A stretch of 64,000 bases of DNA. Source: Aureococcus anophagefferens. Its lineage: Eukaryota > Sar > Pelagophyceae > Pelagomonadales > Pelagomonadaceae. The DNA is taken from positions 591,300 through 655,299 of the forward strand of contig NW_008705578.1 in the NCBI RefSeq assembly GCF_000186865.1, in the 5' to 3' direction. Made by a program: the position numbers and the translations under genes. Of the stretch, positions 32,154 to 61,504 are shown piece by piece (position 1 is the first letter of the stretch; every line of letters begins with the position of its first letter). The notes beneath the pieces were generated by a model that was not told the origin of the DNA, did not search any database, and was given only the letters and a program-made list of their open reading frames with translations.

Positions 32154-35100
32154 ATGCGCCGGTCGAAGAAGCTCAATGAGTCCAAGTCCGCCTCGATCCT
32201 GCACCTGCGCTCGCAGACGCCGGCCAAGGACCTGCGCGGGAGCAAGAGCGCCACCATGCTCAACCGCGGCCCCGGCCGCAAGCACCGCACGGGGTCGCAG
32301 ACGGCCGTGGCCCCGCCGTCCCTGCTCATGGCGCGGCGCGGCACGAAGACGGAGGAGCGGCCGCCGAGCTTTTGGAACGTCGCGCCGGATCTGATGATGA
32401 GCGACCTCGAGTTCGACCTGCGGCAGAAGCAGTCCTTCGACTTCGAGGCGAAGCGGCGGCGCCAGGCCGCCGAGGGGCCGACGCGGGCGCAGAAGAACCG
32501 GTCCATGCTCCAGCGGCGCGCGTCCATCCTGGGCTACAACGAGCTCAACCGGACGCTGCGGTTCCCGTCGAAGCACCGCGACCAGATGGAGACGGACACG
32601 GAGTCCGAGAGCGACGACGACCGGCCCCACCTCCACCGGGGCTCCGTCGACAGCCACCACCCGTCGACGGCGGCGGAGTCGACGGCCGCGACGCTCCGGA
32701 GCGCGCGGCTCTCCGTCGCCGGCGACGAACAGGCGGCGCTCTTCCCCAACGGGCTGCGGCGGGGCGACTACGTCGGCAAGCAGGCGAAGCCGCGCTACTT
32801 CGACGTCTACCGGCGGATCCTGCGCAAGGGCAAGACCGTGCCGCTGCACCTGCCGCTCGACGACGTCGTCAGGGACACGCTCGCGGCCGCGCCGAGCCGC
32901 GACGTCTCCGACGACGACGGCGAGCTCCTCGTCGACGACGACGACGTCACGGAGGCGCCGGGCGCCGTCGTGACGGGCAAGGCCGACGCCGAGATCTTCG
33001 AGGCCTGGGACTCGCCGCGCCACGTCTTCGCGCGGTGCTGCGCGGAGCTCGCGCCGCTCGGCTGCCTGCCGGAGCCCCTCTTCATCCGCTCGGGCGCCGA
33101 GGGCGACGCGGAGAAGATCGACCTGAGCCACCGGGCGCTGGGCGACGGCCTGGCCTGCGCCTTCGCGAAGATCATCCCGAACATCCCGCGCCTCATCACG
33201 CTGAACATGCGCGACAACCGCATGACGGACGTGGGCATCGCGGCCGTGCTCCACGCGGTCTGCACGCACAACGGCGGCGGCTGCCCGCGGCTGACGAATT
33301 TAAATTTGTCGCAGAACGACATCGACCTCGAGGCCGTCGAGTCCATCGCGGAGTTCGTGTCGTTCTCGGGCTGCGCGCTCAAGAAACTCACGCTCGAGAC
33401 CGCGGACCTCGACGACACGGAGTGCGGCGTGCTCATGAAGGCCATGACCGTCAACACGCACCTCACCGAAATGTCCGTGCGCGGGAACATCCTCGGCGGC
33501 TACGGGGAGAAGCTCCTGCGGCCCGTCGTCATCGAGGCCGGCGACGCCGCGAAGGCGCCGCCGCTGGCGGAGAAGGCGCCCTGGAACGCGTCGACGAAGC
33601 CCGGCGGCCTGCTGGAGAAGTCGCCGTCGCGCCGGTCGAGCTTCTCGTCGTCCGCGGGGCCCCGCTGGCACTACGCGGGCGGCGTCGCCGTCGCGGTGAT
33701 GCTCGTCGAGAACGGGGCGGGAGAAGCGTGATTCGCTTCAACCCTTGAGTGTTCCGCGCGCGCGCGTTCTAGGAAAAGCATCCAAGCTTCGAGAGCGCTC
33801 CGAGAGATGATCGCTCGTCCAAAAATCAGCCGGAACGAGTGGACAACGGCCGAGAGAGGAGCCTTTGACGTTGGGAATGTCGCACTCTTTTCCCGCCCAG
33901 GTCGAGAACGCGCACCTCACGAAGCTGGACCTGTCCTGGAACGCGCTGGGCACGTCGTCGGGCATCGCCATCGGCGTCGGCCTCGGCGTGAACCGCGCGC
34001 TGCGCTGGCTGAACCTGGCCTACAACTCCATCGGCGACAAGGGCGCGGCGGCGATCGGCCGCGCGCTCGACAGCAACGGGCGGCTGCGGACGCTGAACCT
34101 CGCGCACACGGGCGTCGGGCCCGTGGCGGCCATGGTCATCGCCGAGGGCATGCGCGAGAATTACGCGTTGGACGTGCTCAACGTGAGCGGCAACCCCGTG
34201 GGCTTCCTCGGCGGCCGCGCGCTCATGCGCGTGCTCAACACGTCGCGGCGGCCGCGGACGCTGCTCATGAACGACGTCGCCTTCGACGTGTCGGCCGCCG
34301 GCGGCTTCGACAGCGACAGCCCGGCGGGGAAGTACGTCCTGGACATCGACGACCCGGGCGACTGGATGGTCGCGCGGGCGCTGGTGTGGATCGCGACGAC
34401 GCGGCCCGGCGCGCGGTTTAAGCGCATCGCCGAGGTCGCGGACGTGCCCCCGGAGGGCGAGGTCAGCGACCTCGACAAGTCGCCGGAGCAGATCCGCGCC
34501 GAGACCGTGGACCGGCTCGTCGTGTCCGCGGCCAAGGCCCAGGGCGCGATCGCGCCGCCGAAGGAGGCGAAGCCGAACCGGCGCCAGGTGACCCTCGTGC
34601 GGCGCTTCGACGACAACGCGGGCAAGGGCGCGGGCACCGTGGGCTGGAAGCCGCCGAAGAAGGCGCGGAAGCGGCGGCCGAAGATGGACGAGGCGACGGC
34701 GAACCGCCTGCAGAAGCGGCTCAGGGACGCGATCGGCACGATCTCCATCAAGGCGCTCTTCAAGCGCTACGACCAGGACATGAACGGCATCGACGCCGAC
34801 GAGTTCATCAAGATGACGCGGCGGGACCTGCGCCTGCCGAAGGACGGCGCCCAGGGCGTCACCGACGACGAGATCGACTGGCTCGTCACGGCGCTCGACA
34901 GGGCAGCAAAAGGGTGCGAAATTCCCAACTTCAAAGGCTCCTATCTCGGCCGTTTTCCGCTCGTTTCGGCTGATTTTTGGACGAGCGATCATCTCTCGGA
35001 ACGACCTCGAAGCGTGGGTGCTATTTCCGAAACGCGCGCGCGCGGAACACTCACGTTGAAGCGACGTTGAATCACCCTTTTGCTGCCCAGGCGCTCGACA

Positions 35101-38100
35101 CGGACCAGGGCGGCACGGTGAACCCCGACGAGCTCGACGACTTCCTCGAGCTGGGCACGGCGGCCTTCTTCACGGCGGACCACATGGACTTCGACGACGG
35201 CTCCGGCGGCTGCGGCTCCGGCGACGACGACGAGGCGCCGGCGCCGAAGAAGAAGGTCGTCGCGAACCCGTTCGCGCCCGAGTGGAAGGCCGCGAAGATG
35301 CTCCAGCGGCGGCTCCGCACGATCCGCATGCACCGCGAGGCCCAGCAGCGCGCGGCGATCCTCGCGACGAACTCGGACGTCGCGTCCTTCGCGCGGAACG
35401 TCGACGGATGCGGCGACGGACCGAAGACGCGCGGCCGGCCGCGCTTCGGCATGCGGGCCCACGCGGCCAACGAGACGGGCAGCCAGCAGCGCCTGCGCAT
35501 CCTGAAGCGGTGCCTCCTCGACGGCGACACGGGCGAGCCCTTCGAGCCGCGGCGCGGCGCGAAGCTCGAGCTCGAGTTCGAGCAGCACGCGCTCCCCGCG
35601 TCGGAGCTCGGCATGCTCAACGCGACGGGGCTGCTGGCGGTGGCCCAGGTCCTCGTGCGCACGACCCTCGAGGACCGGCTGACGCTCCTGCGGCTGGCCT
35701 TCGCGGAGGTCTACGTCGTCGCGGCGCAAGCGCAGGACCTGCTGGACCGCGTCGGGAGCTCGCACCGGCCCTTCGACGGCAACGAGCTCGTCGAGGCGCT
35801 CTTCTGTCTCCTGCAGCGCGTCGTCGACACGCAGAGCGTGCACAACCTGATGGAGCGCAATCTGAGCCGGGACCAGGCCGTGCTCCTGCGGTCGAAATTC
35901 GGCGGCGCGTACTGCGTCTTCACGGGCGCGTTGTGCGGCCACCACGACCTCGACCTCACGCGGCCGGTGGAAAGAGCGGCCCTGCACCGCCTCGTGACCT
36001 ACGACGCGATCCAGGCGGCGCAGCAGCGCGGCGCGTTCGGCGACGACGGCGGCGACGCGGGCGGCGAGGCGGTGGGCGTCTACGCGAACGAGGACACGAC
36101 CGCGGCGCTCGCGCGCGGCGGCACGAGCCAGCACGGCGACTACCGGGGCTTCCGGAACGCGACGATGAACCGCGTGCGCATCAAGCACGACGCCATCGAG
36201 CGGCTCGCCGTCGGCTTCGGCTCGATGGGCGCGCACGACCCGAACCCCGTCGCGGGCAAGCGGACGCTGAGCTTCGACTACGTTGCGAATTTAAAGCCGC
36301 CGACGACGGCGGCGCCGGCGGGCGAGGCGCGCGTCGACACGCTGCTCCACAGCTGCGGCCTCAAGTTCGACGCGACGGAGGTCACGAAGAGCGCGAAGCT
36401 CACGCGGCTCATGCCGACGTTCATGTTCCAGCAGGTGCTGCGCAAGAAGACCGTGCGGCCCAAGGAGTTACGGGTCGTCGGCTACAAGAGCGCGAGCCAG
36501 TCGTCGGAGTCCGCGGCGGAGGCCGCGGCCGCGCACAAGCGCGAGAAGTTCAAGCGGCTCAAGCTCAAGGGCGTCTGCGACCGGTCCGCGCACCACGGCA
36601 AGCCCTGGGACGTCGCCGACTGGCTCGAGGCGCGCTACGCGACGCCCCGGGTCACCTGGCACCGCGCGGACCTCGAGAGCCTCGCGGCGTCGCTCGACGT
36701 CGGCGAGGCCGCGATGCGGTGCGACGTCGAGGAGGGGCGGCTGCTGCCCGCGGCGGCGGGCGGCCGGGGCGGCGCGGGCCCGGGCGAGTCCCTGCCGTCC
36801 GTGAAGATCGTGCGCTCCGTCTTCGAGGTCCGCGCGCGCGTCTGCCACCCGGGCGAGCTCTCGGCGCTCACGTGGCGCCACGCGGCGCCGACGCCCGGGG
36901 ACGTCGCGAAGCGCGAGTCCGTCAAGCACAGCGACCTGTTGCCGGCGAAGTTCGACTCGAACCGGTCCCAGCGGAGCCAGCCCCGGAAGCTGAAGCGGCG
37001 CACGTCCATGGACGACCTGAGCTTCATCTCCAAGGTCCAGGCGGCGATCCGCGCGCGCGCGGCGCGCGCGGCGAGCAAGGTCGCCCACGGCGCGCCGCCG
37101 GTCATCGAGACCTTCATCTCGCGGCGCCTGCCCGTGGACCAGGACGGCCGGCTCCAGTCGAACCCCGCGCGCGCGGCGATCCTCGGCGTCGTCGAGGCGT
37201 GCCGCGACCGGCTGGGCGTCCGCGTGGGCCACGAGGACGTGCGCCTCACGCTGCGCTGCAAGAACGGCGAGAACGCGTCGTCGCTGCCGCCCAAGTTCCT
37301 CGACGGCGTCGACACGGCCGCGACGGTCTTCTACTACGACGTCTACGTCCGGGGCCTGCCCGAGCGGCCGTTCCTCCCCTGCCGCGGGGACAGCGGCTTC
37401 GTCCACGGCGCCTGGGTGCCCTACGAGGAGTGCGAGGAGCCGCCGTCGCCCGAGGAGCTCGACTTCTCCAAGGTCGTGCTCCAGTGCCGCCTCGCGACGA
37501 CGTCGGACCTCTTCCTCTGCCGCCAGATCCGGCACATCGTCGAGCGCTTCGAGCACCACAAGGAGAAGCTCGAGATCCAGAAGAAGTGGCGCGAGCGCAA
37601 GGCCGCCATGGAGAAGGAGTCCAAGGCCCTCATGAAACGGCGCGCGTCGCTCGATCGCCTCGCGTCGTTCGGCCGGTCCGGCGGCCGCGACCTGAGCCCC
37701 GCGATGATCCAGCGGTCGCTGGCGCCGCCGCCGGCGCGGACGGAGGTGGGGCCCGCGGCGCCGGCGGACGGCGCCAAGCCCGCGCGGCCCCGGTCGGCGA
37801 CGAAGCGGTCCAACCCGCCCGACGGCGCCGCGGCCGCCGTCGACGCCGTCGCGGCGGGCGACGCCGCGTCCGCGGAGGAGCCCGAGGAGCCGCCGCCGCC
37901 GCCCGTGTTCCGGCCGCTGGCGGACCTCGTCGTCCACCTCTTTTCGAGGTGCCTCGACCCGGAGAACTTCTACTGGGCCGTGCTCGACCCGACGTTCCCG
38001 ATCCCGCAGAACCGGAACGAGGTCATCCACCGCCTCGGCTGGCTCAACGTGCTCGACGTGCGCAACCCGGAGATCGCGGGCTACGACATCGACCTGCGCT

Positions 38101-38444
38101 ACCCGGACCACTGGAAGGTCGCGCACGTGCTCACGCAGCTCGCGGCCGTCGAGCCGGGCCTCAACTTCAAGCACCCGACGTTCCGCCGGCTCCACGGCCT
38201 CGACCCCATCCCGGGCTGGGACCTCCCGGCGAACTGGGACGTCGTACGCTACACGGGCAACCTCGCCAAGGGCATCCCCACGGACGGCGCGCTCACGCTC
38301 GACTACGAGTGCGACGCGGACGACCTCGAGCTCCGCCGCGACCTCGGCGACGCGTTCACGCTCGCGCGCGTCCAGCGGCCCCAGCGGAGCGCCATCGAGG
38401 CCGCGACGCTGCTGGACGAGGACCACTATAAGGTTGAGGAGTAG
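32154..38444 (+). CDS. Giant LRR and EF-hand protein, three exons split by two introners
   Basis: Exons are 32154-33704, 33901-34890 and 35091-38444; all junctions are phase 0 and give 1964 residues. Exon 1 encodes a basic Ser-rich N-terminus and ribonuclease-inhibitor-type LRRs (ITLNMRDNRMTDVGIAAVL, LTNLNLSQNDIDLEAV). Exon 2 continues the LRRs (LTKLDLSWNALG, LRWLNLAYNSIGDKGAAAI, LRTLNLAHTGVG) and begins EF-hands (RYDQDMNGIDADEF). The second EF loop, DTDQGGTVNPDEL, is assembled across the exon 2/exon 3 junction, proving that splice. Exon 3 has an IQ-like basic helix (AAKMLQRRLRTIRMHREAQ) and long helical regions. It is a probable calcium-regulated scaffold; there is no catalytic domain. Function is unknown. 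Confidence 0.87.
33705..33900 (+). mobile_element. Introner element 1 (intron 1 of the LRR/EF-hand gene)
   Basis: This is a 196-bp GT-AG intron. The 9-bp target copy GTCGAGAAC is at 33705-33713 and again at 33901-33909. The ends are GGGCGGGAGAAGCGTG (from 33715) and CACTCTTTTCCCGCCC (to 33898), an inverted repeat, followed by AG 33899-33900. The donor is the GT of the first target copy. The interior matches the other three copies (block TCGCTCGTCCAAAAATCAGC at about 33811). Forward orientation. No coding capacity. Confidence 0.93.
34891..35090 (-). mobile_element. Introner element 2 (intron 2 of the LRR/EF-hand gene), reversed
   Basis: This is a 200-bp GC-AG intron. The target duplication GCGCTCGAC is at 34891-34899 and 35091-35099. 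The ends are perfect 16-bp inverted repeats, GGGCAGCAAAAGGGTG and CACCCTTTTGCTGCCC, closed by AG at 35089-35090. The interior is the reverse complement of copies 1 and 3 (block GCTGATTTTTGGACGAGCGA at about 34967). Removing it restores the EF-hand loop exactly. Confidence 0.95.
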
Positions 38445-38545
38445 GGTTGAACTGCTCGTTACCGGAAACACTCTTGCGCCGCCAGGTTCGAGGCTGACGA
38501 TCCGGTCGAAGTCGCCGACGTGTCGGCGTCGACAGCCGAAGCGCC

Positions 38546-39682: not shown

Positions 39683-40036
39683 CTCGCTGTGTCCACCCAG
39701 TCCCCTAGCGACGGCGGGAAGCTGTGCAGCGCCTCGCGCACGCCGCGGCGCAGCACGGCCGCCGCGTGGCACGCCGAAACCCGCGTCCTCGACCGTAGCA
39801 GGCCCGCCCGTTCGGGCGTCGCCGACGGGAGGCGCGGCTCGCCCGCCCGGACGGGCGAGGCGTCGGGCGCCGCCGGCCCGAAAATAATTTTTTTTCTATA
39901 CCCCCGGCGGCCAGAAAGCTAATGGCTCGCTTTGTTTGTTTCGCGAGCGACTCAGTCAGCGAGGAGAGCCTCTCGACGCGACGCTCCACGTGTTCACACG
40001 ATTCACGCGACTCCGCCTGCGCCTGGGCAAGGTCCG
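39683..40036. other. Intergenic spacer of 354 bases
   Basis: The spacer contains a GC-rich self-complementary patch (CTCGCCCG and CGGGCGAG at about 39838-39860), then an AT tract (AAAATAATTTTTTTTCTATA, about 39880-39899), then the leader of the next gene. No gene was seen. Confidence 0.4.
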
Positions 40037-40911
40037 ATGGACGTCCTAGACCAAATGGAGGCCGAATGTGAGGATGACGAGCTCGCACAACAAGCCATAC
40101 AGAAGATGAAGGACTGCCTCGAAGGCGACTCGGGTGAGAAGGTCGACGATGACAAGGTCGACGAATACGTCGCGGAGCAGCACGCCGTCCAGGAAATGTT
40201 GAAGGAGAACACCGAAACTCAGCGCCAAGCGGAGCTCCACTACCAGCAGAAGGCGAAAACCAAGTCCGCCGCGAACAAGCGCGACGGCGAGACGCCCGCC
40301 GACGGCGATACGGACGCGCCGACGAACGGCGCCACGGGCGCGCCCGCGGCCGCGAGCCCGCCGAAGAAGAAGCGCGGGCGCGGGCCGCCCGAGACGCCGT
40401 CCGAGGGCGGCGAGAGCGGCGTCGCGGGCCGCGTCGGCGCGCGGAAGAACCGCGGCACCCGCGCGCCCTCCGAGTTCCGCGAGGAGCCATCGACCTTCCT
40501 CGCGCAGTCCTCCGCGCGCTTCGGCGACCAGCGCGGCGTGACCTTCGCCAAACCCAAGGAGAAGCGCCACTACACGTACCGCGACGACAACACTATCGAG
40601 TCGCTCACCGTCACCACCAGGGCAGCAAAAGGGTGATTCAACGTCGCTTCAACATGAGTGTTCCGCGCGCGCGCGTTCCGAAAAAAGCATCCACGCTTCG
40701 AGACCGTTCCGAGAGATGATCGCTCGTCCAAAAATCAGCCAAAACGAGTGGAAAACGGCCGAGATATGAGCCTTTGAAGTTGGGAATTTCGCACCCTTTT
40801 GCTGCCCAGGTCACCACCCAGGACTCGCTCACGACCGGAGTGACCACGGTCGCGCAGGCCGAAAAGATCGAGCAGCTCCAGGCGGAGCTCGCGGCCGCCC
40901 GCGCGAAGTAG
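40037..40911 (+). CDS. Small coiled-coil protein with NLS-like motif, two exons
   Basis: Exons are 40037-40609 and 40810-40911 (224 residues), joined in phase 0 by introner 3. The N-terminus is acidic and helical (MDVLDQMEAECEDDELAQQA), the middle is Ala/Pro-rich with PPKKKRGRGPPETP (NLS or AT-hook-like), and the C-terminus added by exon 2 is TTVAQAEKIEQLQAELAAARAK, a short coiled coil. Reading through without splicing would end three codons into the introner. No family was recognised; it is probably nuclear. Confidence 0.72.
40610..40809 (+). mobile_element. Introner element 3
   Basis: This is a 200-bp GT-AG intron. The target copy GTCACCACC is at 40610-40618 and 40810-40818. The 16-bp inverted ends GGGCAGCAAAAGGGTG and CACCCTTTTGCTGCCC are perfect, closed by AG 40808-40809. 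Same orientation as copy 1. Interior landmarks are GTTCCGCGCGCGCGCGTTCC and TCGCTCGTCCAAAAATCAGC. No open frame. Confidence 0.95.
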
Positions 40912-50196: not shown

Positions 50197-50380
50197 GCGG
50201 TAAGGCGCGTGTTATATTCTCGCGTGGCATGAGGCCTGGCATGGTCGACCTCACTATTCATCGAGATCGAAAGGTTGAAGGTGCAAGAGCTCTTGAAACA
50301 ACCGAGACAACGCGGCCTCTCGGCGCGAACGACGACGCCGCGCGGCGGGGCAGCCTCCGCCGGCGGCGCTCCGTGCGACG

Positions 50381-51460
50381 ATGGCCTTCGCCGGGTCGAC
50401 GTACGAGCCCGAGGGCCGCGGGCGCCTCGCCTACGACGGCTTCATGACGGTGCACACGGCCGACGAGGGCCGGTGCCACATCGACCCCAAGCTCCAGCCC
50501 GTCTACACGCCCGGGCCGGCGGCGCACTACGACCTGCAGGCGAAGCGCCACGTCAAGGGCATGGGCTTCGGGTCGTCGACGAGCAGCCGCTTCGAGTTCA
50601 ACGACACGCGGAGCCGGCGGCGGCGCGACGAGTCGCGGCCGAGCACGACGGGCGGCTCCGCGGCGAGCGGCCGCGGCGGCTCCTACCGGGGCCGCACGGG
50701 CGCGACCTGGGGCAGCGGGTCCCTGGGCCTCGACCGGCCGTCGACGTCCGACGCCACGGTGCTCACGAAGCGCGGCAGCTTCGGCGCGTCGCGGCCGAGC
50801 ACGTCGGACGGCGCGCCCAAAAAGTACTGGACCTTCGGGGACGGCAAGAGCGGCCGGCCGCGGCCCGGCGACCACGGCATCCTCTTCGGCTTCTCGAGCG
50901 CGCGGAGCGCCCGGGCGCGGAGCCGGAGCGACTCGACGTTCGGCGACGGGTCCACCGTGCTGACGCCGCCGCCGCCGACGCCCGCGCCGAGCCTCTTCAG
51001 CTCGTCGCAGCGCTACAGTCCCGTGCAGTGGCGGTCCGTGGAGAAGAGCTCCATCGCGCTCAAGGGCCGCGGCGCCGACTCGCCGGGGCCCAAGTACTTC
51101 CCGCCGGTGCAGGACCTGCACCACCTCGTCGACGTCAACTTCACGGACTCCGCGCGGTTCCAGGGCCGGGACTACTACATCCCCGCGTCCCACAGCCCGG
51201 GTCCGCCGGAGACCGTGCCGCCCGACGACCTCACGCGCGACCACCGCCACGACCGCAAGCTCACGGACGGCGGCAGGCACGAGAACGGCTCCATCTTCGG
51301 CTTCGTGAAGCACCACCTCAGCCCGGGGCCCGTCTACGCGCCCTGGGACTCGTTCCCGAAGAACCGGACCTCCATGAAGAGCCACCACGCCTGCGCCCAG
51401 CGGCCCCGGGTCATCGGCGTCCCCGTCAAGAAGGCGCCGGGCGTCGACTGGATCCACTAA
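50381..51460 (+). CDS. SHIPPO (SPGP)-repeat flagellar protein
   Basis: The protein has 359 residues. Repeats typical of STPGR/SHIPPO proteins include YTPGPAAHY, DSPGPKYFPP, HSPGPPETV and LSPGPVYAP, separated by Ser/Arg/Gly-rich linkers with RPSTS(D)A(T) repeats. Such proteins (ODF3/CFAP-type) are microtubule inner proteins or axonemal components. This fits an organism with a flagellated stage. The repeat motifs are clear; the exact orthologue is not identifiable by eye. The ATG follows a leader with no in-frame alternative of better context. Confidence 0.8.
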   Translation: MAFAGSTYEPEGRGRLAYDGFMTVHTADEGRCHIDPKLQPVYTPGPAAHYDLQAKRHVKGMGFGSSTSSRFEFNDTRSRRRRDESRPSTTGGSAASGRGGSYRGRTGATWGSGSLGLDRPSTSDATVLTKRGSFGASRPSTSDGAPKKYWTFGDGKSGRPRPGDHGILFGFSSARSARARSRSDSTFGDGSTVLTPPPPTPAPSLFSSSQRYSPVQWRSVEKSSIALKGRGADSPGPKYFPPVQDLHHLVDVNFTDSARFQGRDYYIPASHSPGPPETVPPDDLTRDHRHDRKLTDGGRHENGSIFGFVKHHLSPGPVYAPWDSFPKNRTSMKSHHACAQRPRVIGVPVKKAPGVDWIH

Positions 51461-51691
51461 CGACTTCGCTTCGCACGGGGGTCCTCGTCGCTGCGTCGTC
51501 GTCTGCGGTCGTCGTGTGGAGGCGTGCGGCGCGCGGAGGGCGCTTGGAGGGCTCAGGGCTGCGGAGATGCTGCGGCGCGACTGCAGAGGCGTACGGCCAA
51601 TCATCGAGCAACAGCCGACGTCCGAGGTCGCGAGGGCCGCCGCCGCCGCGATCGACGAGTGCGCGCCGCCGCTGCCGCGACCTCCGACACG

Positions 51692-53527
51692 ATGGACGTG
51701 CGCAAGAGCCAGCGCCTCGCCGTGGAGCGCATGCTCGCCCTGTCGAGCGACGAGGACGCGAGCGCCGAGGCGGGCCCCGTGGACTGGAAGGTGCTCATCC
51801 TCGACGAGCCCTGCCGCCTCATCCTCGCGCCGCTCATCTCCGTCAACGAGCTGCGGAAGCGGGGCGTGACGCTCCACGCGCCGCTCGAGAGCGACCGCGA
51901 CGCTTTGGACGACGTCGCGGCGGTCTACCTCTGCCGGCCGACGGAGGCGAACGCCGCGCGCGTCGCCAGGGACTGCGCCGCGGGCCTCTACGGCGCGTGC
52001 TACGTGAACTGGTCGACGCGCGTGGACCGGCGCGTGCTCGAGGGCCTCGCGCGCGAGCTCGCGGCGGCGCCGACGGCGGCGCCCGCCGAGGACCGCGTCG
52101 CGGCGGTCTGGGACCGCCACGTCGACTTTGTCGCCTTGGAGCCGCGGCTCTTCGCGCTCGGCGCGAAGCGGGCCTTCGCCGAGTGGCACGGGCCCGGCGG
52201 CGACGCGGCGAAGCGGCGCGACGCCCTGGCGACGAGGCTCGCGGCGGGCCTCTTCTGCGTCTGCGCGACGGCCGGCGCGGCCGCGCCCGTGCTCCGGTGC
52301 GCCGCCGGCGGCGCGGCCGAGGCCGTGGCCCGCAAGCTCCACGCGCTCTTGGCCGACGAGTGGCGGCGCCGCGGCGCCGCGGGCGGCGGCGACGGCGCGC
52401 GGAAGCGGCCGCTCCTCGTGTTGCTGGACCGCCACTGCGACTTGGCGACGCCCTTGCGCCACACGGAGACGTACCAGGCCTTGGTCGACGACGTGCTGGA
52501 CCACGAGGCGAACGTCGCGTCCTTCGCCGATGAATCCGGGGCCAAGAAGGTCGACCTGCGCGTCGACGAGGACGGCTTCTACGGCGAGCACGCGGCGAAG
52601 TCGTTCCCGGACGTCATCGACGCGTCGGGCGAGGCGCTGGCGACGCTCCGCGCGGCGGAGAACGCGCTAAGAGCTCGCGGCGCGGGCCAGGATGCGACGG
52701 AGGCCGACGGCGACGCGGCGAAGCTCGCGGAGACCGTGGGCGAGCTGCCCGCGCTGCTCGCGCGGAAGAAGCTGCTCGAGCACCACACCGCGGTGCTCGG
52801 CGCGGTCATGAAGGCCGTCGTCGCGCGCGAGGTGCCGCGCTACTGCGAGGCCGAGGATTCGCGCGCGGCGGCGGACCAGCTCGCGGAGCTCCTGGGGCCC
52901 GCGGGCAAGGGCTCGGCGAACGACAAGCTGCGATTGTACGCGTACCACGCGCTCGAGGGCGACGCGGACGACGCGCGCGTGGCGGAGCTCCGCGCGGCGC
53001 TGGGCGACGACCCGGCGCTCGCGCGGGGGCTCGCGGGCATCGACTACGCGCGGGGGCTCGGGGGCGCGCACGCGGCCGGGCCCGCGCGCGAGGCGCCGCC
53101 GGCGGTCGAGGACGACGCGTTCAAGGCCTTGCTGCAGAAGGCCCACGCGGGCACGAAGCACCTGGTGACCAAGGCGGCGAAGAACGTCGGGAACCTCTTC
53201 AAATCCTCCGAGACCTACGCGGCCAAGGTGCTCTCGAACCTCTTCGAGGCGCGGCCGAACACGGAGCACGACTCGTGGCTCGAGCTCGACGCGAAGCTCG
53301 CGCCGTCCTACTACGCTTCCGGTAAAGCCGGCGGTCCGGGCGCCGCCGCCGACGCGCCCCTCGACGCCATCGTCTTCGTCGTCGGCCCGGGCTGCTACGC
53401 GGAGCACCACGCGCTCCAGCGGACCTTCGCGGACGGGCCCCGCACCGTCGTCTACGGCGCGGCGGACCTCCTCAACGCCGACGCGCTCCTCGACGAGCTC
53501 GCGGACCTCGCGGCGGCGAGCGCCTAG
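51692..53527 (+). CDS. SLY1 / Sec1-Munc18 family vesicle-fusion protein
   Basis: The protein has 611 residues, the length expected of SLY1/SCFD1. Landmarks are LILDEPCRLILAPLISVNELRKRGVTLH (start of domain 1), VYLCRPTE, YGACYVNWST, FVALEPRLF, PLLVLLDRHCDLATPLRHTETYQALVDDVL (the SM signature of domain 3a), KKLLEHHTAVLGAVMKAV, and the C-terminal IVFVVGPGCYAEHHAL. SM proteins bind syntaxins; SLY1 acts at ER-Golgi steps. The start is at MDVRKSQR after a CA-rich leader; upstream in-frame sequence is poor. It is convergent with the next gene. Confidence 0.92.
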   Translation: MDVRKSQRLAVERMLALSSDEDASAEAGPVDWKVLILDEPCRLILAPLISVNELRKRGVTLHAPLESDRDALDDVAAVYLCRPTEANAARVARDCAAGLYGACYVNWSTRVDRRVLEGLARELAAAPTAAPAEDRVAAVWDRHVDFVALEPRLFALGAKRAFAEWHGPGGDAAKRRDALATRLAAGLFCVCATAGAAAPVLRCAAGGAAEAVARKLHALLADEWRRRGAAGGGDGARKRPLLVLLDRHCDLATPLRHTETYQALVDDVLDHEANVASFADESGAKKVDLRVDEDGFYGEHAAKSFPDVIDASGEALATLRAAENALRARGAGQDATEADGDAAKLAETVGELPALLARKKLLEHHTAVLGAVMKAVVAREVPRYCEAEDSRAAADQLAELLGPAGKGSANDKLRLYAYHALEGDADDARVAELRAALGDDPALARGLAGIDYARGLGGAHAAGPAREAPPAVEDDAFKALLQKAHAGTKHLVTKAAKNVGNLFKSSETYAAKVLSNLFEARPNTEHDSWLELDAKLAPSYYASGKAGGPGAAADAPLDAIVFVVGPGCYAEHHALQRTFADGPRTVVYGAADLLNADALLDELADLAAASA

Positions 53528-53540
53528 GGGGTAGTGCGAA

Positions 53541-55246
53541 TTAAGGCGACGCGGCGCACGAGACGGCCCCGTTCTTCTTGACGAGCGTGTACCGCCCCTT
53601 GGCCTTCAGGGCGCGCATCGTCTCCTTGAGCGCGTCGTTGAAGGCGGGCAGCCCGCCGAAGCCGGCCTCGACGATGGCCAGCAACCGGTCGCGCTGGACC
53701 GCGTCGTAGCACGACGCGCGCGCGACGTCGAAGCGCTCGAACTGCTGCTCGAAGAAGGCCTTGACGCGCCCGGGCTCGTCGAGGGGCGGCTCCTCGGGCG
53801 GCGCCTCGAGCGCGCCCCGCTGCCGCGACGGCGTCCGGAAGAAGCCGAGCGACGGCGTCCGCGCGCTCGGGGGCCGCGCGGGCCTCGCGCCGTCGGGCGC
53901 GATGAAGAAGAGCTCGACGTCGTCGACGCGGCCGCCCATCTGGATGAAGACGAACAGTTCCAGCATGCACCAGAGCCGCTCGAGGTACGTCTCCCCGCAC
54001 AAGATGAAGAGCTGGTTGCAGCCCGCGAGGAAGAGGGGCAGGCACATCAAATTCTCCTCGATGCTCCGCTGGTCGATGCAGAACTTGTCGAGCCAGATGA
54101 CCGGGTCGCGCTTGTGCTCCTCGCGGAAGCGCGCGCGCGCCTCCTGGAGCGCGTCGTACTTGGCGTCCGCGTCCTCGCGCCAGCTGTGGCTCACGAACCA
54201 GTCGACCTGGCCGTACTCGGCCGGTTTCGCGAGCTTGAAGAGCTCCGGGTCCGGCGTCGATTTCTGGATGTGCGCCAGCTCCACCCGCGCGACGTCGACG
54301 CCGAAGAACTTCGACCTCGCGACCAACTTTCACCTCGTCGACGTCGTGGTCGCCGAGCAGCGCCGCGACGCCCGCGGCCGACGAGATCTGGCCGCCGCGC
54401 GCGAGGAGCGCGCTGTGCGCTCGCTGGCGGAACGAGGGCCAGACGGCGCAGGCCCCGAAGAAGAAGTAGCTCCCGAGGATGAGCCACTCGCCGACGTGCT
54501 GGCCCGGCCGCACGCCGCCCGGCCGGACCTGGGCCGCGACGCGCTGCGCGAGCCGCGCGGCGCCGACGCCGAACCAGACGAACGCCGCGCAGTGCCAGAG
54601 GCGGTCCAGCGACGCGCGCGTCGGCAGCCACAGGGCCGACACGAGCCCGGCGACGGTCGCCAGCGTGATGGCGCCCTTGAGCCACTGGCCCGCCGCGACG
54701 ACGCCGCAGAACCACGCGGGCTTCCTCTCGAGGCACGCGCGGCCCTCGGCGCCGACGCCCGGCGTGTCGCGCGCGGCGACGACGAATAACACGAGCGACG
54801 CCAGCGTCAGGGCCACGCTGAAGAAGGCGAGGACCTGCGCGAGGCGGCTTTCGGGCGCGAAACCGGGGGGATGCGTCCGCGCCGGCGCCGCGCGCGGTAG
54901 ATCGCGCGCCGATCCGTCGGGAGCAGCGCGAGCATGAGCGCGAGCGCGCCGGGCGGCCCGCAGAAGACGGCCGCGTGGTAGAAGTCGCTGCCGACGGCGA
55001 AGCCGCCGACGTCGTTCGAGCACAGCGCGATGCCCACGACCATGAACGTGAACCTGCGGCGCGACGTCGGGGGGGGGGACGGCAGCCCCGCGCGCTCGGC
55101 GCCGGCCGCGACATGACGCCTCCGAGGCCGCCCATGGTCCCGCTGATGCGCAGCCGCACGAGGTGGCCGGCGCTCTTCGCATCCCGCAGGCGCCGCGACA
55201 GGGTGGGTTCGTTCTCTGGGATGGCGGGCAGCGGCGCGACCTTCAT
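53541..55246 (-). CDS. Multi-pass membrane protein with TIR-like (SHSW) cytosolic domain, three or four exons
   Basis: Minus-strand exons are inferred as 55246-55110, 55053-54894 and 54834 onward. GC-AG introns are 55054-55109 and 54835-54893. The N-terminal part has hydrophobic helices (FTFMVVGIALCSNDVGG, GPPGALALMLALLP, VLAFFSVALTLASLVLFVVA, WLKGAITLATVAGLVSALWL, WLILGSYFFFGACAVW). The C-terminal domain has VDWFVSHSWREDADAKYDAL, VIWLDKFCIDQRSI, CLPLFLAGCNQLFILCG and ERLWCMLELFVF, a TIR-like fold common in stramenopiles. Near 54330 the frames must shift; either a 43-nt intron (54330-54372, minus strand) or a one-base indel is needed. Signalling function is inferred. Confidence 0.72.
54835..54893 (-). 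other. Inferred 59-nt GC-AG intron
   Basis: The donor is TACCGC|GCGCGG and the acceptor TCGCGCAG|GTC, phase 0. It joins AIYR to VLAFFSVALTL. The intron is GC-rich throughout. Confidence 0.6.
55054..55109 (-). other. Inferred 56-nt GC-AG intron with C10 tract
   Basis: The donor is ATGTC|GCGGCC and the acceptor CGCCGCAG|G, phase 2. A run of ten C (minus strand, about 55069-55078) gives an acceptor-side polypyrimidine tract. It joins GVMS to FTFMVVG. Confidence 0.6.
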
Positions 55247-55506
55247 CGACGCGGTCCGCGCCGGCGGAGCAGCGGCGCGGCGACCCTAGATCATGAGGCT
55301 GCCCCTGCGGTCATGACGCATGCGTACTGCCGGCATGCGTTTCGACGGCCCGTTTCGACGACGACACGCTCGGCGGCGCCGCGCGCTGAACAACACTGTG
55401 ACGGGAAGCCTCGAATCTCGATTCTTGAAGATCCCCTCAGGCTCGCCTCGTTTTTCCACTTGTTTTTACTTGTTTTTCCCGCGCGGCAACGCGAAGCTCA
55501 CAAAGT

Positions 55507-57078
55507 TTACCCCGGCGTGAGGGTCCGGCGCGCGACGACGGCGGAGATGGCGACGTAGGCGACGACGACGAGCGCCGCCTGGGGCGCGCCGAAGGACGGC
55601 GGCCGCCGGAGCGCGAGCGGCCCGAGCACGGAGCCCACGAAGAGCGCGCCGATGAGGAAGACGCCGTAGCGCAGCGCGGGCACGCAGTCGACGCCGGAGA
55701 CGGCGACGGGCTTCGCCGAGAGGCAGCCGTGGACCGTGAAGGGGATGCCGACGCCGAGCAGCACCGTGACGACCTGGACGCCGAGCACCGTCGACACCGC
55801 CGCGCGGCCGTGGCCGGACGACGCGATGTTCGCGGACACGAGCACGTCCGGGATCGCGTAGACCGCGGGCAGGAACACGGCGCCGGCGAAGGCCAGGGGC
55901 AGCCGCGCGGAGAGCGCGAGCAGGTCCGCGAGGCGCGTGAGCAGCAGGAGGAGCGCCGCGAGCCAGAGCCCGCTGCCGGCGAGCGTCGGCGCGGCGTCGC
56001 GGAGCGCCGCGCGCGCGCCCGGCGCCGTCGCCGCGGGCAGCGGCGGCGGCAGGAGCAGCCGCGCGGCGTCCAAAACGCGCTCCCGCGGCGTGCGCACGGC
56101 GTGGCCCTTGTCGTCGGCCGCGCGCCGCGGCGACGCCGGCGGCGTCGTCGAGCTCTTCGGCACCAGCCGCGCCGGCGACCCGAGCTCGAGCTCGGCCTTG
56201 GGCGACGCCGGCGGCGTCGACGCGGGCCGCGGGCCGAGGAAGCACGCCAGGACGTGCGCCGCGTACAGACCCAGCAGCCCCAGCGCCTCGGCCAGGCTCA
56301 CGAACTCGTCCGCGACGACCCAGAGCAGCGCCGCGAAGGCCAGCAGCGCGAAGGCGCCGTCGCGCGCGACGGGCACCGGGTCGAGGTCGATGGGCAGCGC
56401 CTTGGCGCCCCGCGCGACCCGCGCCGCGCACGCAACCACAAAAGGCAGCAGGCCGAAGTTGACGACGCCGCTGCCGAGCACGAAGTTGAGGCCCACGCCG
56501 ACGCGGCCCTCGACGGTCTCGACGGTCGAGAAGAGGACCTCGAAGCCGCCCGTCGCGAGCGCGAGCACCGTCGCGCCGGCGACGTCGTCGGGCACGCGCG
56601 CGGCGACGCAGACGGACCGCAGCGCGGGCAGCGTCCGCTCCTCTAATAGCAAACCCATCCAGAGCGACAGCGCCAAAACGGCGCCGAGGTAGGCCGGTGC
56701 CATGCCGCGGTACGCGAGCCACCCGAAGTGGCGCCGCGCCTCGCGCGCCCGCGCGCGCTCGACGCGCGCCGCCAGCTTCGTTTCCCTGTTGCCTTGCGAC
56801 CGCGCGAGGCCCGCGCCGTGGCGTTTGACGTAGTGGCCGAGCTTGTAGAGCTCGAGGTGCGACGCGAGGTAGCTCGCGGCTTTCTTGGAGGTCGCGCTCA
56901 GCGACGTGCGGTGGCTGCGTTTCGATGGAAAGTGGCCGTCCAACTTCAGGAACTCGCCGCTCTCCAGCGCGACGAGCATGGCGAGGGCGGCGACGAGGCC
57001 GATGCCGCGCCGCCAGGCCGGTCGCGGCTGCGGCGGCTCGCGCTCGCTCGTAGTGTCTATTTTGTGTGGTGTCGACAT
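55507..57078 (-). CDS. NCKX-type cation/calcium exchanger
   Basis: The protein has 523 residues. It has two blocks of hydrophobic helices with a hydrophilic Pro/Ser-rich loop between (about 290-340). The alpha-1 repeat is ATVLALATGGFEVLFSTVET followed by GLNFVLGSGVVNFGLLP (about 160-205), and alpha-2 is AVFLPAVYAIPDVLVSANIA followed by TVLGVQVVTVLLGVGIPF (about 390-440); these hold the ion-coordinating Glu and Asp. This is the layout of K+-dependent Na+/Ca2+ exchangers. A hydrophobic N-terminal segment may act as a signal anchor. It is expected in plasma membrane or vacuole; ion preference is inferred. Confidence 0.87.
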   Translation of the reverse strand: MSTPHKIDTTSEREPPQPRPAWRRGIGLVAALAMLVALESGEFLKLDGHFPSKRSHRTSLSATSKKAASYLASHLELYKLGHYVKRHGAGLARSQGNRETKLAARVERARAREARRHFGWLAYRGMAPAYLGAVLALSLWMGLLLEERTLPALRSVCVAARVPDDVAGATVLALATGGFEVLFSTVETVEGRVGVGLNFVLGSGVVNFGLLPFVVACAARVARGAKALPIDLDPVPVARDGAFALLAFAALLWVVADEFVSLAEALGLLGLYAAHVLACFLGPRPASTPPASPKAELELGSPARLVPKSSTTPPASPRRAADDKGHAVRTPRERVLDAARLLLPPPLPAATAPGARAALRDAAPTLAGSGLWLAALLLLLTRLADLLALSARLPLAFAGAVFLPAVYAIPDVLVSANIASSGHGRAAVSTVLGVQVVTVLLGVGIPFTVHGCLSAKPVAVSGVDCVPALRYGVFLIGALFVGSVLGPLALRRPPSFGAPQAALVVVAYVAISAVVARRTLTPG

Positions 57079-57349
57079 TTTTCGGCGCGACTACTGCCGC
57101 CTTATTGGCGCTGCGGCTGCCGATTATTTTGATGCGGCGCGACTAGTGCCTATTGGCGCTGCGCTGCCGGATTATTTGAGCGTCATCTCGCGCCGCCCTC
57201 CTAGATGCGCCTCGGGAGTTTGAGGTCGTCGCTGAAAAATGCCACAAGCCGGAGTGCGTTCACGACGAAGCTTGCACATCACAGTCGACGAAGCCGAGAG
57301 CGACACACCGACGCCGCGCCGAGCAGTCCGTCTCCTGGTCCGCACCACC
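57079..57349. promoter_or_regulatory. Divergent promoter region with tandem repeat
   Basis: Between the exchanger and guanine deaminase starts, two direct copies of a 43-47-base unit (57083-57129 and 57135-57177), each from CGGCGCGACTA to ATTATTT, lie side by side. A repeated upstream element is plausible as a regulatory module. Confidence 0.5.
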
Positions 57350-58708
57350 ATGGCGTCCTTCGCCGCCAATCGCTTCGCGGTCCGCGGCCGCCTCGTGCAC
57401 GCGACGGAGACGCCCTGCGTGCTCGAGTACGTTGAGGACGGCCTCGTCGTCGTCGACGGCGGCGCCATCGTCGCCGTCGCCAAGGACACGCCGTCCGTCG
57501 AGGCGCTCCTGCGGGACGGCGACCCCGGCGTCGTCGTCGAGCTCGCGGCGACGGACTTCCTCGTGCCGGGCCTCGTCGACTGCCACGTGCACGCGGCGCA
57601 GTACGCGTACACGGGCACGGCGACGGACAAGCCGCTCATGGAGTGGCTCCAGCACTACACCTTCCCCGCCGAGCGGCGCTGCGCCGACGTCGCCTACGCG
57701 CGGCGCGTCTACGAGAAGCTCGTGGACCGGCTCCTCGCCAACGGCACGACGTGCAGCGCCATGTACGCGACGATCCACGTCCCGGCGACGAAGGTCCTCG
57801 TGGACGTGTGCCTCGAGAAGGGCCACCGCTGCGTCGTCGGCAAGGTCTGCATGGACCGCAACGGCGCCGAGGGCTACGAGGAGACGACGGCGGATGCGCT
57901 CGCGGGCACCGAGGCGGTCATCGAGTACGTGAAGGCGCGGCAGCCCGGCGCGGCGCCGAGGACGCGCGTCGTCCAGCCCTGCGTCGTGCCGCGCTTCATC
58001 CCGACGTGCACGCTGCCGCTGCTCGCGGGCCTCGGCGCGCTCGCGAAGAAGCACGACTGCTGGGTCCAGAGCCACGCGTCGGAGACGCCCGACGAGATGG
58101 CGTTCGTCGCGAGCCTGCACCCGGGCCGGTCCGACTCGTCGATCTTCGACGACGCGGGCCTCCTGACGGACAAGTGCGTCATGGCGCACTGCGTCTACCT
58201 CGACGAGAACGAGCTCGGGCTCTTCGCGAAGCGCAAGTGCGGCGTCGCGTGCTGCCCGCTGTCGAACGCGGTCTTCTCGCTGTCCGAGGGCACGAACGCG
58301 TTCCCCCTCAAGCGGGCCCACGCGCGGGGCGTGCCCGTGGGCCTGGGCACGGACATCGCCGGCGGCTACGCGACGTCCATGCTCAGCGCGTGCCGCCACG
58401 CCGTCGTCGCGTCGAAGCACGCGGCGAACGAGCCCGACGTCGACTACCGCGACGCCTTCTGGACGGCGACGCTCGGCGGCGCGCGGGCGCTGGGCCTCGG
58501 CGACACGCTCGGCTCCTTCGCCGTCGGCAAGCAGTTCGACGCGTGCAAGATCCGGTGCGAGGCCGGCGTCTACGACACGTTCCCCGAGTGCATCCCCGAC
58601 GGCACGCCCCGGCTCCACATCGACTTCGAGCAGTTCCTCAACCTCGGCGACGACCGCAACGTCGCCGCCGTCTTCGTCCAGGGCCGTCTCGTCAAGGGCG
58701 CGGTCTAG
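57350..58708 (+). CDS. Guanine deaminase
   Basis: The protein has 452 residues. It has the amidohydrolase metal site: DCHVHAAQYAYTG with H79 and H81, QSHASE with H242, AHCVYLD with H280, and GTDIAGG with D335. The PRF motif (VVPRFIPTCT) and C-terminal GKQFDACKI are typical of guanine deaminases (about 450-470 residues). The enzyme converts guanine to xanthine and ammonia, allowing purines to serve as a nitrogen source. The start was chosen at MASFAANRF in a good context (CACCATGG). Guanine deaminases help marine algae use organic nitrogen. Confidence 0.95.
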   Translation: MASFAANRFAVRGRLVHATETPCVLEYVEDGLVVVDGGAIVAVAKDTPSVEALLRDGDPGVVVELAATDFLVPGLVDCHVHAAQYAYTGTATDKPLMEWLQHYTFPAERRCADVAYARRVYEKLVDRLLANGTTCSAMYATIHVPATKVLVDVCLEKGHRCVVGKVCMDRNGAEGYEETTADALAGTEAVIEYVKARQPGAAPRTRVVQPCVVPRFIPTCTLPLLAGLGALAKKHDCWVQSHASETPDEMAFVASLHPGRSDSSIFDDAGLLTDKCVMAHCVYLDENELGLFAKRKCGVACCPLSNAVFSLSEGTNAFPLKRAHARGVPVGLGTDIAGGYATSMLSACRHAVVASKHAANEPDVDYRDAFWTATLGGARALGLGDTLGSFAVGKQFDACKIRCEAGVYDTFPECIPDGTPRLHIDFEQFLNLGDDRNVAAVFVQGRLVKGAV

Positions 58709-59516
58709 CACTTGGTCTAGCTTGTTTTTAATACGTCCACTGCCGGCTAAGCTAAAGTTAACCGGTTCAAAGAGCAGCGAAGCCGTGAAGTTTTGACGTC
58801 ACGGCTTTGCCTCGCTCCGGGCTCGGACGCGCGATGCAGCGGTTCCAAGACTTGGCGCGGCGCTCGGTCTGTGGACCATGTCGCGCCTTGGGCCCGGCTG
58901 TGAGTCGCTCGGGAAAGACCATCGGTCGAAGGCGAGCAACTTAGTTCGCGTCGGGGCAGCCCGTGGATGACGAGAACGGCCATTAACGGTGGGGGGCGAC
59001 CGACGAGGGGCCCAACTTATNNNNNNNNNNNNNNNNNNNNNNNNNNNNNNNNNNNNNNNNNNNNNNNNNNNNNNNNNNNNNNNNNNNNNTCTGGTCGCCC
59101 CCATGACGAACGATTCCCGACGCTCTGTGACTCGAAGGGGACCGAAAATCGGGTCGGGGGAAGCTGCCGCGCCTCATTCCACCCCCTGGGGCTGCCCGTT
59201 TGCGTCGCCTCGCAATCGTCCGGATGTCACGTCTTTTCATGTGCCTCACCCACATGTTTGCGGACCTCAAAGCCACTGGGATCGTTGCACGTCGCTGCAT
59301 ATTCGAGGAGCGCGGGGCCCTCTAAGGTGGAGATTCCATCATCGGCCGCTGAAATGCTCGCACGAGAGACCGTCTCTTAGCTACGGATTACTGCAGCATT
59401 GCTTCATAGATGTGCTTGTTCAACGACGGCTCATTCGCAGCCGTAGCCGGTGGTGCCCCTGCAACTTGCGGCGTTTCTAATAGCGCTTCAGCGCATGGGA
59501 GCGGCCCCCAACTGAG
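58709..59516. other. Intergenic region with repeat and assembly gap
   Basis: The region contains a hairpin AAGCCGTGA (58780) with TCACGGCTT (58799), a gap of 69 N (59021-59089), an inverted pair GGGGGCGACC (58992) with GGTCGCCCCC (59093) flanking the gap, and repeat copy B. No supported gene was found. Confidence 0.5.
59095..59345 (+). repeat. Dispersed repeat, copy B
   Basis: This is the partner of the repeat at 11600-11850. Blocks at 59109, about 59174 and 59197-59226 keep the same distances. The copy abuts the N gap, so it may extend into it. It may belong to the same element family as the 818-bp inverted-repeat element; TGCCGGCTAAGCT at 58741 resembles that element's left end. Confidence 0.6.
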
Positions 59517-60056
59517 ATGGCGCGGCTCGTCCACGACGGGCTGTCCGAGGGCGTGTTCAAGGCGGAGAACGCGAAGGCCGTCGGCAACGAGAAGTTCCAG
59601 GCGGGCAGCTTCGCCGACGCGCTCGACTGGTACGACCGGTCGCTGAAGCTCATCGACGACGTGCTGTCGACGGGCGCGGACTACGAGCGCCACGCCAAGT
59701 ACGGCGGGCCGGAGCTGCTGCGGTGCCACCGCAAGGCGCTGAAGCAGGCGCGCCAGCTCCAGGTGAAGGTCCACTGCAACCGCTGCAAGACGCTCGCCAA
59801 GGTCGGCCGCTTCGCCGAGGCGCGCGCGGCCGCCGCAGAGGTGCGCGCGCTCGACCCGGAGAACGCGACGGCCATCAAGGCCGGCGCCCACGCGGCCGTC
59901 GCCATGGAGGACGCCGCGGGGGCCGAGTGGGACGTGCTCCGCAACTACGCGATCCGCAACCCCGGCGACGTCGAGGCCGCGGGCCTCGTCGCGATCTGGG
60001 AGGAGGCCCGCGGCTACGCCGACGAGGAGGCCGCCGCCCGCAGCGCGTCGGCGTGA
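59517..60056 (+). CDS. TPR-repeat protein
   Basis: The protein has 179 residues. Three tetratricopeptide-like helix pairs are visible: AKAVGNEKFQAGSFADALDW, VHCNRCKTLAKVGRFAEARA and the next pair ending in DPENATAIKAGAHAAVAMED. The first begins with the EKAxxxKxxGNExF pattern typical of co-chaperone TPRs. No other domain is present, so it is probably an adaptor (Hsp90-type client binding) or a shortened peptidyl-prolyl isomerase relative. It is convergent with the bestrophin-like gene, stop to stop 63 bases. Confidence 0.8.
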   Translation: MARLVHDGLSEGVFKAENAKAVGNEKFQAGSFADALDWYDRSLKLIDDVLSTGADYERHAKYGGPELLRCHRKALKQARQLQVKVHCNRCKTLAKVGRFAEARAAAAEVRALDPENATAIKAGAHAAVAMEDAAGAEWDVLRNYAIRNPGDVEAAGLVAIWEEARGYADEEAAARSASA

Positions 60057-60119
60057 CTCGACGCGTGGCATGTGTCGCAAGTTTCGAATAACGGATACAT
60101 ATGTGTAACATTAGAAACA

Positions 60120-61504
60120 TCACAGGTCGTTCGGGAGCTGGACGCGCTCCCCGTAGAGCGACGCCGCGGTCTCGTCCGACGGCCGGACGCGGCCGAGCGG
60201 CGTCGTCGTCACGTAGGGCCGGATCGTCGCCCGGAGCTGCTTCAGGCTCGCGGCGACCGTGTTCGACTCGAGGCGGTAGAGCCCGCTGAAGGGCGAGTTG
60301 AAGTCGACGGCGAGCGCGTTGAAGACGACCAACGCGCCGACGATGAACGCGAAGAGGACGTGGACGCCGAAGGACGCGTCGAAGACGAGCGCGCCGTCGA
60401 CGGTCACCGCGCCGAGCATGTGCGGCACGCGCACGGGCATGGGCCGGTCGAGCGTCAGGTAGGTGTAGGCGACGACGAGCGCCACGGACAGGGCCCGCAG
60501 CACGCTGAACTGCACGGGCGGGATGCCCGAGTTCTCGAGCGAGAGCCGGACGCCCCGCGCCTCCATGAGCCGCTCCGTCGTCTCGAGCGCGGACGTCAGC
60601 ACGTCGTAGGCGCCGTCGCCGCGCCACTCGAGCTGCGCGCGCCGGAGCGTCGCGTAGAGCGTGCCCAGGTTGTCGACGGACGACGCCATGGCCTCGAGCT
60701 CGAGCTCGCGCGTGCCCGCGATGAGGTCCGTCGAGTGCAGCCAGAGCTGCTCCGCGCACTGCTCAAAGACCTCGACGCGCCGCGCCCGCGGCGGCGCCCC
60801 GGGCGCGTCGTCCTCGAGCAGCACGATCTCGAGCGTCTTCACGAGCGGCAGCATGAGCGTGCACTCCTCGACGGCCGCGCCGCGCAGCGCGCCGAGCCGC
60901 GACGTCGCGTCGGAGATCGTCGACGCCGTCAGCGTGCCGAAGACGATGGAGATCAGGCTAAAAAAGTAACCGCCTGGGCAGCAAAAGGGTGCGAAATTCC
61001 CAACTTCAAAGGCTCCTATCTCGGTCGTTTTCCGCTCGTTTCGGCTGATTTTTGGACGAGCGATCATCTCTCGGAGCGCTCTCGACGCGTGGATGCTGTT
61101 TCCGAAACGCGCGCGCGCGGAACACTCACGTTGAAGCGAAGTTGAATCACCCTTTTGCTGCCCTGGTAGCCGCCCTCGACGGCGTTCGGCGGCGGGATCT
61201 GCGACAGCACCGCGACGACGGCCGGGTACGCGAGGTACGCGGCGACGACGCTCACCGTGCGCGACAGCGACCGGTCGCCCTCCGGCGCGTCGAACGACTT
61301 GCTGTCGAGCGTGCCGCACTCGTAAAATTCTCCCGGCGGCGCGTAGGACCGCCGCGGCTGCGGCGCCTTGAGCGCGTTGGAGAGCTGCTCGAGGCGGCGC
61401 TCCGCATGGAGTCGTGCGCCTACGCGCCGCACGCGCCGCGGCGGCGCGGTGAGCGCCGAGGCTGTTGCAAGCAGAGCTAGCATCGCTGCTTGCGGCGTTC
61501 CCAT
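60120..61504 (-). CDS. DUF4239/bestrophin-like membrane protein, two exons, introner intron
   Basis: The exons on the minus strand are 61504-61174 and 60973-60120 (394 residues), joined in phase 1 at VEG|GYFFSLIS by introner 4. The N-terminal leader MLALLATASALTAPP fits a plastid or secretory presequence. Hydrophobic segments are VVAAYLAYPAVVAVLSQI, FSLISIVFGTLTAST, VLRALSVALVVAYTYLTL and HVLFAFIVGALVVFNALAV. DFNSPFSGLYRLES near the end matches the C-terminal signature of DUF4239/bestrophin-like proteins, thought to be ion channels in plastid or other membranes. Function is inferred. Confidence 0.8.
60974..61173 (-). mobile_element. Introner element 4 (intron of the DUF4239-like gene)
   Basis: This is a 200-bp GC-AG intron on the minus strand. 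Target copies are GCGGCTACC (61173-61165) and GCGGTTACT (60973-60965), differing at two bases. The 16-bp inverted ends are perfect. It has the same internal orientation as copies 1 and 3 relative to its host gene. Splicing gives VEGGYFFSLIS. Confidence 0.94.

Follow-up and report, generated by a model that had tools for sequence, protein, structure and literature searches.

What are the four similar introns that interrupt three genes in a 64,000-nucleotide stretch of the Aureococcus anophagefferens genome (hereafter the window), and how did they come to lie where they do? It is well documented that genomes can gain introns en masse through introners. An initial annotation of this DNA had read the four introns as copies of one inverted-repeat element, a reading that was borne out within the 64-kb window. 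We conclude that the copies, here called A to D, are very probably introners of the DNA-transposon kind, in which the donor comes from the target-site duplication and the acceptor AG from the element. This grade applies to their identity as introners and to the layout of their splice sites; the assignment of the family to hAT transposons is graded separately below.

Layout and copy number of the element

The copies, their second duplicates and the exact arms of their 16-bp terminal inverted repeat (TIR) are as follows.

33705..33900, plus strand: copy A, a 196-nt GT-AG intron of an LRR gene, phase 0, duplication GTCGAGAA
33901..33908, plus strand: second 8-bp duplicate of copy A, GTCGAGAA, which opens the next exon
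34891..35090, plus strand: copy B, a 200-nt GC-AG intron of the same LRR gene, phase 0, duplication GCGCTCGA, interior A>B
34901..34916, plus strand: left TIR arm of copy B, exact match
35091..35098, plus strand: second 8-bp duplicate of copy B, GCGCTCGA
40610..40809, plus strand: copy C, a 200-nt GT-AG intron, phase 0, duplication GTCACCAC, interior B>A
40810..40817, plus strand: second 8-bp duplicate of copy C, GTCACCAC
60974..61173, minus strand: copy D, a 200-nt GC-AG intron of a Bestrophin-like gene, phase 1, interior B>A in the gene sense
60966..60973, minus strand: second 8-bp duplicate of copy D (GCGGTTAC in the gene sense)
35073-35088, 40620-40635, 40792-40807, 60976-60991 and 61148-61163: other exact 16-bp TIR arms

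Three genes host the four copies: the LRR gene (A and B), the Bestrophin-like gene on the minus strand (D), and an unnamed gene close to whose 3' end copy C sits. With lengths of 196, 200, 200 and 200 nt, the copies agree with the size of about 200 bp first assigned to them. The 16-bp TIR that had been described, GGGCAGCAAAAGGGTG, has six exact occurrences in the window, which form three inverted pairs (34901/35088, 40620/40807, 60976/61163), and one further match with three mismatches lies at 33883, giving seven in the window vs 0.33 expected from shuffles. Copy A has diverged TIRs, with arms GGGCGGGAGAAGCGTG and GGGCGGGAAAAGAGTG, and its left end is CG, while its acceptor is AG; it is 88-89% identical to the other copies over 166-168 bp. 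Similarity stops at or beside the splice sites: the acceptor AG is the end of the element, and the donor lies 10 bases ahead of the left repeat. Scanned for other inverted arms of 10 bases with a perfect 8-bp duplication around them, the window returned 55 rows, 25 of them copies B and C in different registers and the other 30 G+C-rich stretches; the mirror-image control gave 12 arm pairs, and the scan missed copies A and D.

Genome-wide counts were made over 49.05 Mb in 86 contigs. Counting the interior, as the initial annotation had suggested, gave 2055 matches to a 33-mer at up to three mismatches, and none for the backward-pattern control. The exact 16-mer repeat has 494 matches (control 1), and a 22-mer from the B end of the element has 1279 at up to three mismatches (control 1). 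In sampled loci, 95 interior matches resolved into 78 distinct copies, all in distinct flanks, 15 repeats of copies already counted, and two for which one end could not be recognised and which were left out (in L011, N covers it; the other is a second copy in L076). This set includes all four window copies (A and B through L012); it is not random, holding the 30 best matches to copy B and six copies picked for sites that do not begin with GT or GC (non-GY sites). A second sample comprised the first 30 exact interior matches, taken with the ends disregarded, all on contig C1 and with no drops. Every one of these 30 has an AG end and a GY duplicate; 24 of the 30 duplicates are perfect, with L057 scored one base out of register.

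The layout [GYNNNNNN]-C(A/G)-GGGCAG...CTGCCC-AG-[GYNNNNNN] describes 30 full copies (copy B and 29 elsewhere in the genome) and also the 78 distinct copies, with CAGGGCAG as the left end of the element and CTGCCCAG as its right end. Among the 78, the left end is CA in 59 and CG in 10; the right end is AG in 73, with two more AG ends hidden by a shifted register, and CG in three. Degenerate copies near younger ones, in L017 (about 2945), L026 (about 620) and L052 (about 1921), have a right end of CG instead of AG.

The duplication had been given as 9 bp, and this did not hold: its length is 8 bp. Among the 74 copies oriented by their AG end, the two flanks agree at positions 1 to 8 in 72, 68, 71, 68, 68, 68, 64 and 70 copies. 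Agreement outside the duplication is 25/74 at the base just before it and 24/74 and 12/74 at the two after it, and we ruled out a 9-bp duplication on the 24/74 at position 9. The apparent ninth base is the element's own first C, met by a C in the right flank of the three perfect window duplications. The duplication of copy D (GCGGCTAC/GCGGTTAC) is identical at 7/8, with one mismatch. In L050 (about 1329-1518) direct repeats are missing from the flanks; compared visually, the left 8 bases match the reverse complement of the right 8 at 7/8, which suggests local rearrangement.

The duplications also bear on the possibility that the family spread via RNA, with spliced introns re-inserting by reverse splicing and copies therefore all sense and genic. 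The observed distribution, which is sense and gene-bound, fits such a route. Reverse splicing, however, would transfer the old 5' end and leave no duplication, whereas the first 8 intron bases here match the local exon at 8/8 in 60 of the 78 copies; it also leaves the TIRs unexplained. We rejected it on the duplications and consider it very improbable.

Reading frames, related proteins and donor choice

Given the proposed layout, a donor GT or GC from the duplication and an acceptor AG would be expected at each site, and both are found in all four window copies. Likewise, the frame restoration claimed for these introns is seen at 4/4 window junctions, where exon joining leaves an open frame. 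With both introners spliced out, the LRR gene has a frame of 1964 residues. Read-through in the coding phase meets a stop after 8, 59, 8 and 36 codons in copies A, B, C and D, respectively. Among the 73 copies labelled sense, 71 have no stop within 60 codons of the junction.

Related proteins were compared with the predicted junctions. P0038, from Pelagophyceae sp. CCMP2097 (38% identity in the first aligned block), is gap-free across both LRR junctions, at residues 517 (copy A) and 847 (copy B). For the Bestrophin-like gene, P0001 (409 residues, 99% identical, from a 2287-nt contig) has the exact predicted junction of copy D and may represent either a transcript or an empty allele; neither P0001 nor P0005 has an insert there. 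The gene of copy C has two relatives, one encoded by the window itself and the other stopping short of the junction. Because neither informs the junction, the evidence at copy C is its open frame.

The copies might instead be ordinary exon insertions, translated or gene-breaking and not introns, since P0036, P0002 and P0003, all gene models in GenBank, include translated stretches of copies A, B and D. Two proteins assigned to A. anophagefferens, P0036 (SO694_00038050) and P0037 (JL721_2569), have as their first residues MSHSFPAQ, a string whose codons lie inside copy A; P0036 (94% identity over 84% of the region) has a further 20 residues that come from copy B. P0002 and P0003, named A. anophagefferens and 100% identical over the aligned columns apart from model insertions and gaps, hold residues from different parts of copy D, and P0034, listed as encoded by the window, terminates inside copy C. 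The parts of the introners translated in gene models are these.

33877-33900, 34900-34959 and 40619-40633, plus strand
61140-61165, minus strand

Against translation of the copies, P0002 and P0003 disagree over the same introner, P0001, P0005 and P0038 are without introner residues, and read-through meets a coding-phase stop at all four sites. We find it scarcely credible that the copies are exon insertions. The gene models in GenBank for this harmful-bloom alga contain introner-coded residues from copy A, which has a GT donor, and from copies B and D, which have GC donors.

Each insertion samples a donor, and the family is a clean natural experiment on what this spliceosome accepts. We observed 336 exact right ends with AG genome-wide (controls 0, 1 and 1), and the next base is G in every one. 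The dinucleotide that follows is GC in 168, GT in 162, GA in 5 and GG in 1, so that 330 of 336 are GY; these counts read the exon-side duplicate, which is identical to the donor side at 8/8 in 60 of 78 copies. Relative to the coding dinucleotide background, retention is 1 for GT, 0.32 for GC, 0.02 for GA and 0.003 for GG. GC donors are routine in this genome. Beyond the first two bases of the donor, no clear GTRAGT-like preference was found in the 78 copies.

The six non-GY cases comprise four with GA on both sides (L048, L049, L052 and L053), one with GG on both sides (L051), and L050, which has GT on the donor side. The four GA copies have a sense coding score and an open frame across the junction, and are likely candidates for GA-AG introns. 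The copy in L051 (about 1329-1518), with GG duplicates, ends CTGGGCAG and CTGCCCAG and a low coding score, is possibly not spliced.

RNA folding was also considered. The ends pair in the predicted folds of copies B and D (z -3.0 and -3.3), and the fold of copy A is no better than those of its shuffles (z -0.67; 44 of 200 as good). Matching changes in the two repeat arms exceed chance expectation, at 22 vs 12.6 for interior A>B and 14 vs 3.1 for B>A. We set these paired changes aside as proof of an RNA hairpin, since a transposase also binds the repeats and the copies are related.

Origin of the element and comparison with known introners

We propose that the source was a non-autonomous inverted-repeat DNA transposon of A. 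anophagefferens, about 192 bp long, which would become a spliceable intron when landing in an exon. Insertion duplicates 8 bp of the target, as the flanks show, and an upstream duplicate beginning GT or GC would become the 5' splice site. The layout shows that the element brings a polypyrimidine-like right repeat, CCCTTTTGCTGCCC, and the AG that would act as acceptor, and excision of the element plus one duplicate at the RNA level would restore the old exon exactly.

The ends of the element bear on where its transposase came from. The termini of hAT transposons take the form CAGGG...CCCTG, with a TIR that starts CAG(G)G at both ends. The left end of the present element is CAGGG and its right end, on its own strand, is CTGGG; a single base, AG in place of TG at the right end, sets it apart from a perfect hAT-type terminus. 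Because the right end is one base off such a terminus, a single base change may have given a hAT-like miniature element its acceptor. Miniature inverted-repeat elements of the hAT group share the 8-bp duplication and the CAGGG-type left end, as in Ac-type ends, whereas they differ in that the right end here is CTGCCCAG and not CTGCCCTG and that no hAT transposase could be linked to the element. From the 8-bp duplication and the CAGGG end, we favor hAT, with some reserve, as the source of the transposase.

The interior provides a record of the family's history. Of the 74 oriented copies, 31 have it as A>B and 43 as B>A, and the right end (sense 3') is AG in both groups; the 30-copy interior sample has 20 A>B, L057 among them, and 10 B>A. 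Mapped on a tree of the copies, in which the four unoriented ones were labelled BA, orientation requires 8 parsimony changes vs a mean of 24.3 and a minimum of 18 in 200 label shuffles. In nine columns, the composition of one set departs from that of the other by more than 0.4. Because orientation follows sublineage, we rejected the idea that it is picked afresh at each insertion. The two orientations thus form two largely separate lineages, probably produced by one or a few inversions between the repeats and the subsequent spread of both forms; exchange between the repeats would have inverted the interior while AG stayed at the same end. If both orientations are spliced, the right repeat with CCCTTTTGCTGCCCAG would be a signal common to both.

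Several points weigh against this account as a whole. That the copies are spliced in the cell is something we infer from reading frames and homologous proteins. The ancestral CA...TG element was absent from the 78 copies. An autonomous partner was not found in searches with PF05699 and PF10551 and for element ends: PF05699 gave four matches of 22-24 bits, all above its cut-off, and a fuzzy repeat search in their loci found only one 4-mismatch match, common to L043 and L044; repeat-and-duplication pairs in L046 and L047 yielded nothing convincing; and PF10551 gave no match. Finally, the near absence of copies at neutral sites, described in the next section, is left unexplained by the proposed mechanism.

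Two further searches concern the same question. PF18758 gave no match, but its control was also empty and the result is uninformative. Among other interiors on the exact repeat, none stands out by its next base, with only 3/494 having G or T rather than A or C; such a screen misses diverged repeats, or another interior with the same next base. L046 and L047, two of the four PF05699 loci, carry hAT-like transposase genes in a segment that is 99.2% identical over 4989 bp (contigs C1 and C13), and comparing the two yielded no element ends because the shared segment begins at the edge of L047.

Micromonas pusilla has introners that are non-autonomous DNA transposons making introns, and the present family is like them, by description, in being non-autonomous and intron-making. 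The introner elements of A. anophagefferens itself were reportedly treated by Huff, Zilberman and Roy (Nature 2016). The comparison with Aureococcus made in the initial annotation is apt, as the closest named proteins (P0002, P0003 and P0036) are from A. anophagefferens, and the kind of element, and almost certainly this very family, is already known from that species. What is shared with the introners of Huff and co-workers, as described in part in passages of PMC9481584 and PMC7789003, is the species, a length of about 200-210 bp, TIRs, constant-length direct repeats, one splice site carried with the other taken from the duplication, and, as predicted here, exact splicing; there is no difference in kind. 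In an excerpt of the survey by Gozashti et al. 2022 (PMC9860276), which also names the Micromonas pusilla introners, some families with TIRs and target-site duplications likewise bring a 3' site of their own and draw the 5' one from the duplication. Family 4 of Aureococcus sp. (a TARA metagenome genome) in that excerpt brings both splice sites with it and its insertion adds 12 bp to a transcript, whereas the family described here adds nothing. Amoebophrya introners, according to passages of PMC7789003, also have inverted repeats at the intron ends that can fold to bring the exon ends together; their splice sites are often non-canonical and their repeats variable, whereas here nearly all sites are GY-AG and the repeats are nearly constant.

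Placement on the sense strand of coding DNA

The placement of copies was assessed with a coding classifier trained on six window genes. When it was checked on six other stretches, the strand of its best frame agreed with the listed one in five; the exception was 50258-52591, an open reading frame without a Pfam match, where the best frame was on the opposite strand. Since a listing at two mismatches gave most loci in both orientations, only the AG-oriented rows of that listing were used. Of the 74 AG-oriented copies, 71 are sense, none is antisense and 3 score low (L050 is sense or low depending on junction placement); the four copies without a clear orientation divide into two that score as coding and two that score low. 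All 30 copies of the interior-chosen sample score as coding with AG at the sense 3' side, and within it L060 (0.10) and L074 (0.14) have a low score though sense. By comparison, 4000 random window sites gave 1282 sense, 1294 antisense, 1309 low and 115 undecided.

One explanation is that insertion is random in place and orientation and that the sense, GY-only pattern comes wholly from selection against unspliceable copies. Antisense and non-GY exon insertions should be strongly harmful, and the donor counts fit selection on donors, GT being retained at roughly three times the rate of GC against the coding background, and GA and GG hardly ever. However, about one-third of random window sites score as non-coding, where copies would need no splice sites, yet none of the 336 right ends lacks the G, and all 30 interior-chosen copies score as coding and sense. 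Some copies at unconstrained sites should be followed by A, C or T, and the absence of a non-G base after any of the 336 exact right ends with AG therefore bounds that class at no more than about 1.4% (95%), assuming that the transposase has no preference for G. Random insertion followed by selection does not easily account for this near lack of neutral copies, and we regard selection by itself as a rather doubtful explanation.

Alternatively, the transposase may favor the bodies of genes (methylated linker DNA, for instance) and a G at the end nearest the AG, with selection then culling antisense and non-GY copies. Position 1 is G in 336/336, while 6 copies depart from C or T at position 2; the five of these that have a duplicate start with G on both sides. 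A preference of introners for genes and linker DNA, reported in the excerpt of PMC9860276, lends further support. A symmetric transposase, on the other hand, should give a mirrored C at position 8, and C is found there in 35/71. We give this explanation about an even chance.

It is also conceivable, and in our judgment unlikely, that insertion itself takes place only on the sense strand of genes that are expressed, with no need of later selection. The integration complex would then sense transcription polarity or a GY|AG context, as it might at R-loops or in the wake of the polymerase. If so, essentially each new copy would be born a spliceable intron, and this DNA transposon would choose its targets in a manner tied to gene expression. 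The near lack of neutral copies would fit insertion that favors gene bodies and G, insertion coupled to transcription, or unusually fast loss from noncoding DNA. The lack of neutral copies makes the choice between targeted and selected introner placement directly testable in A. anophagefferens.

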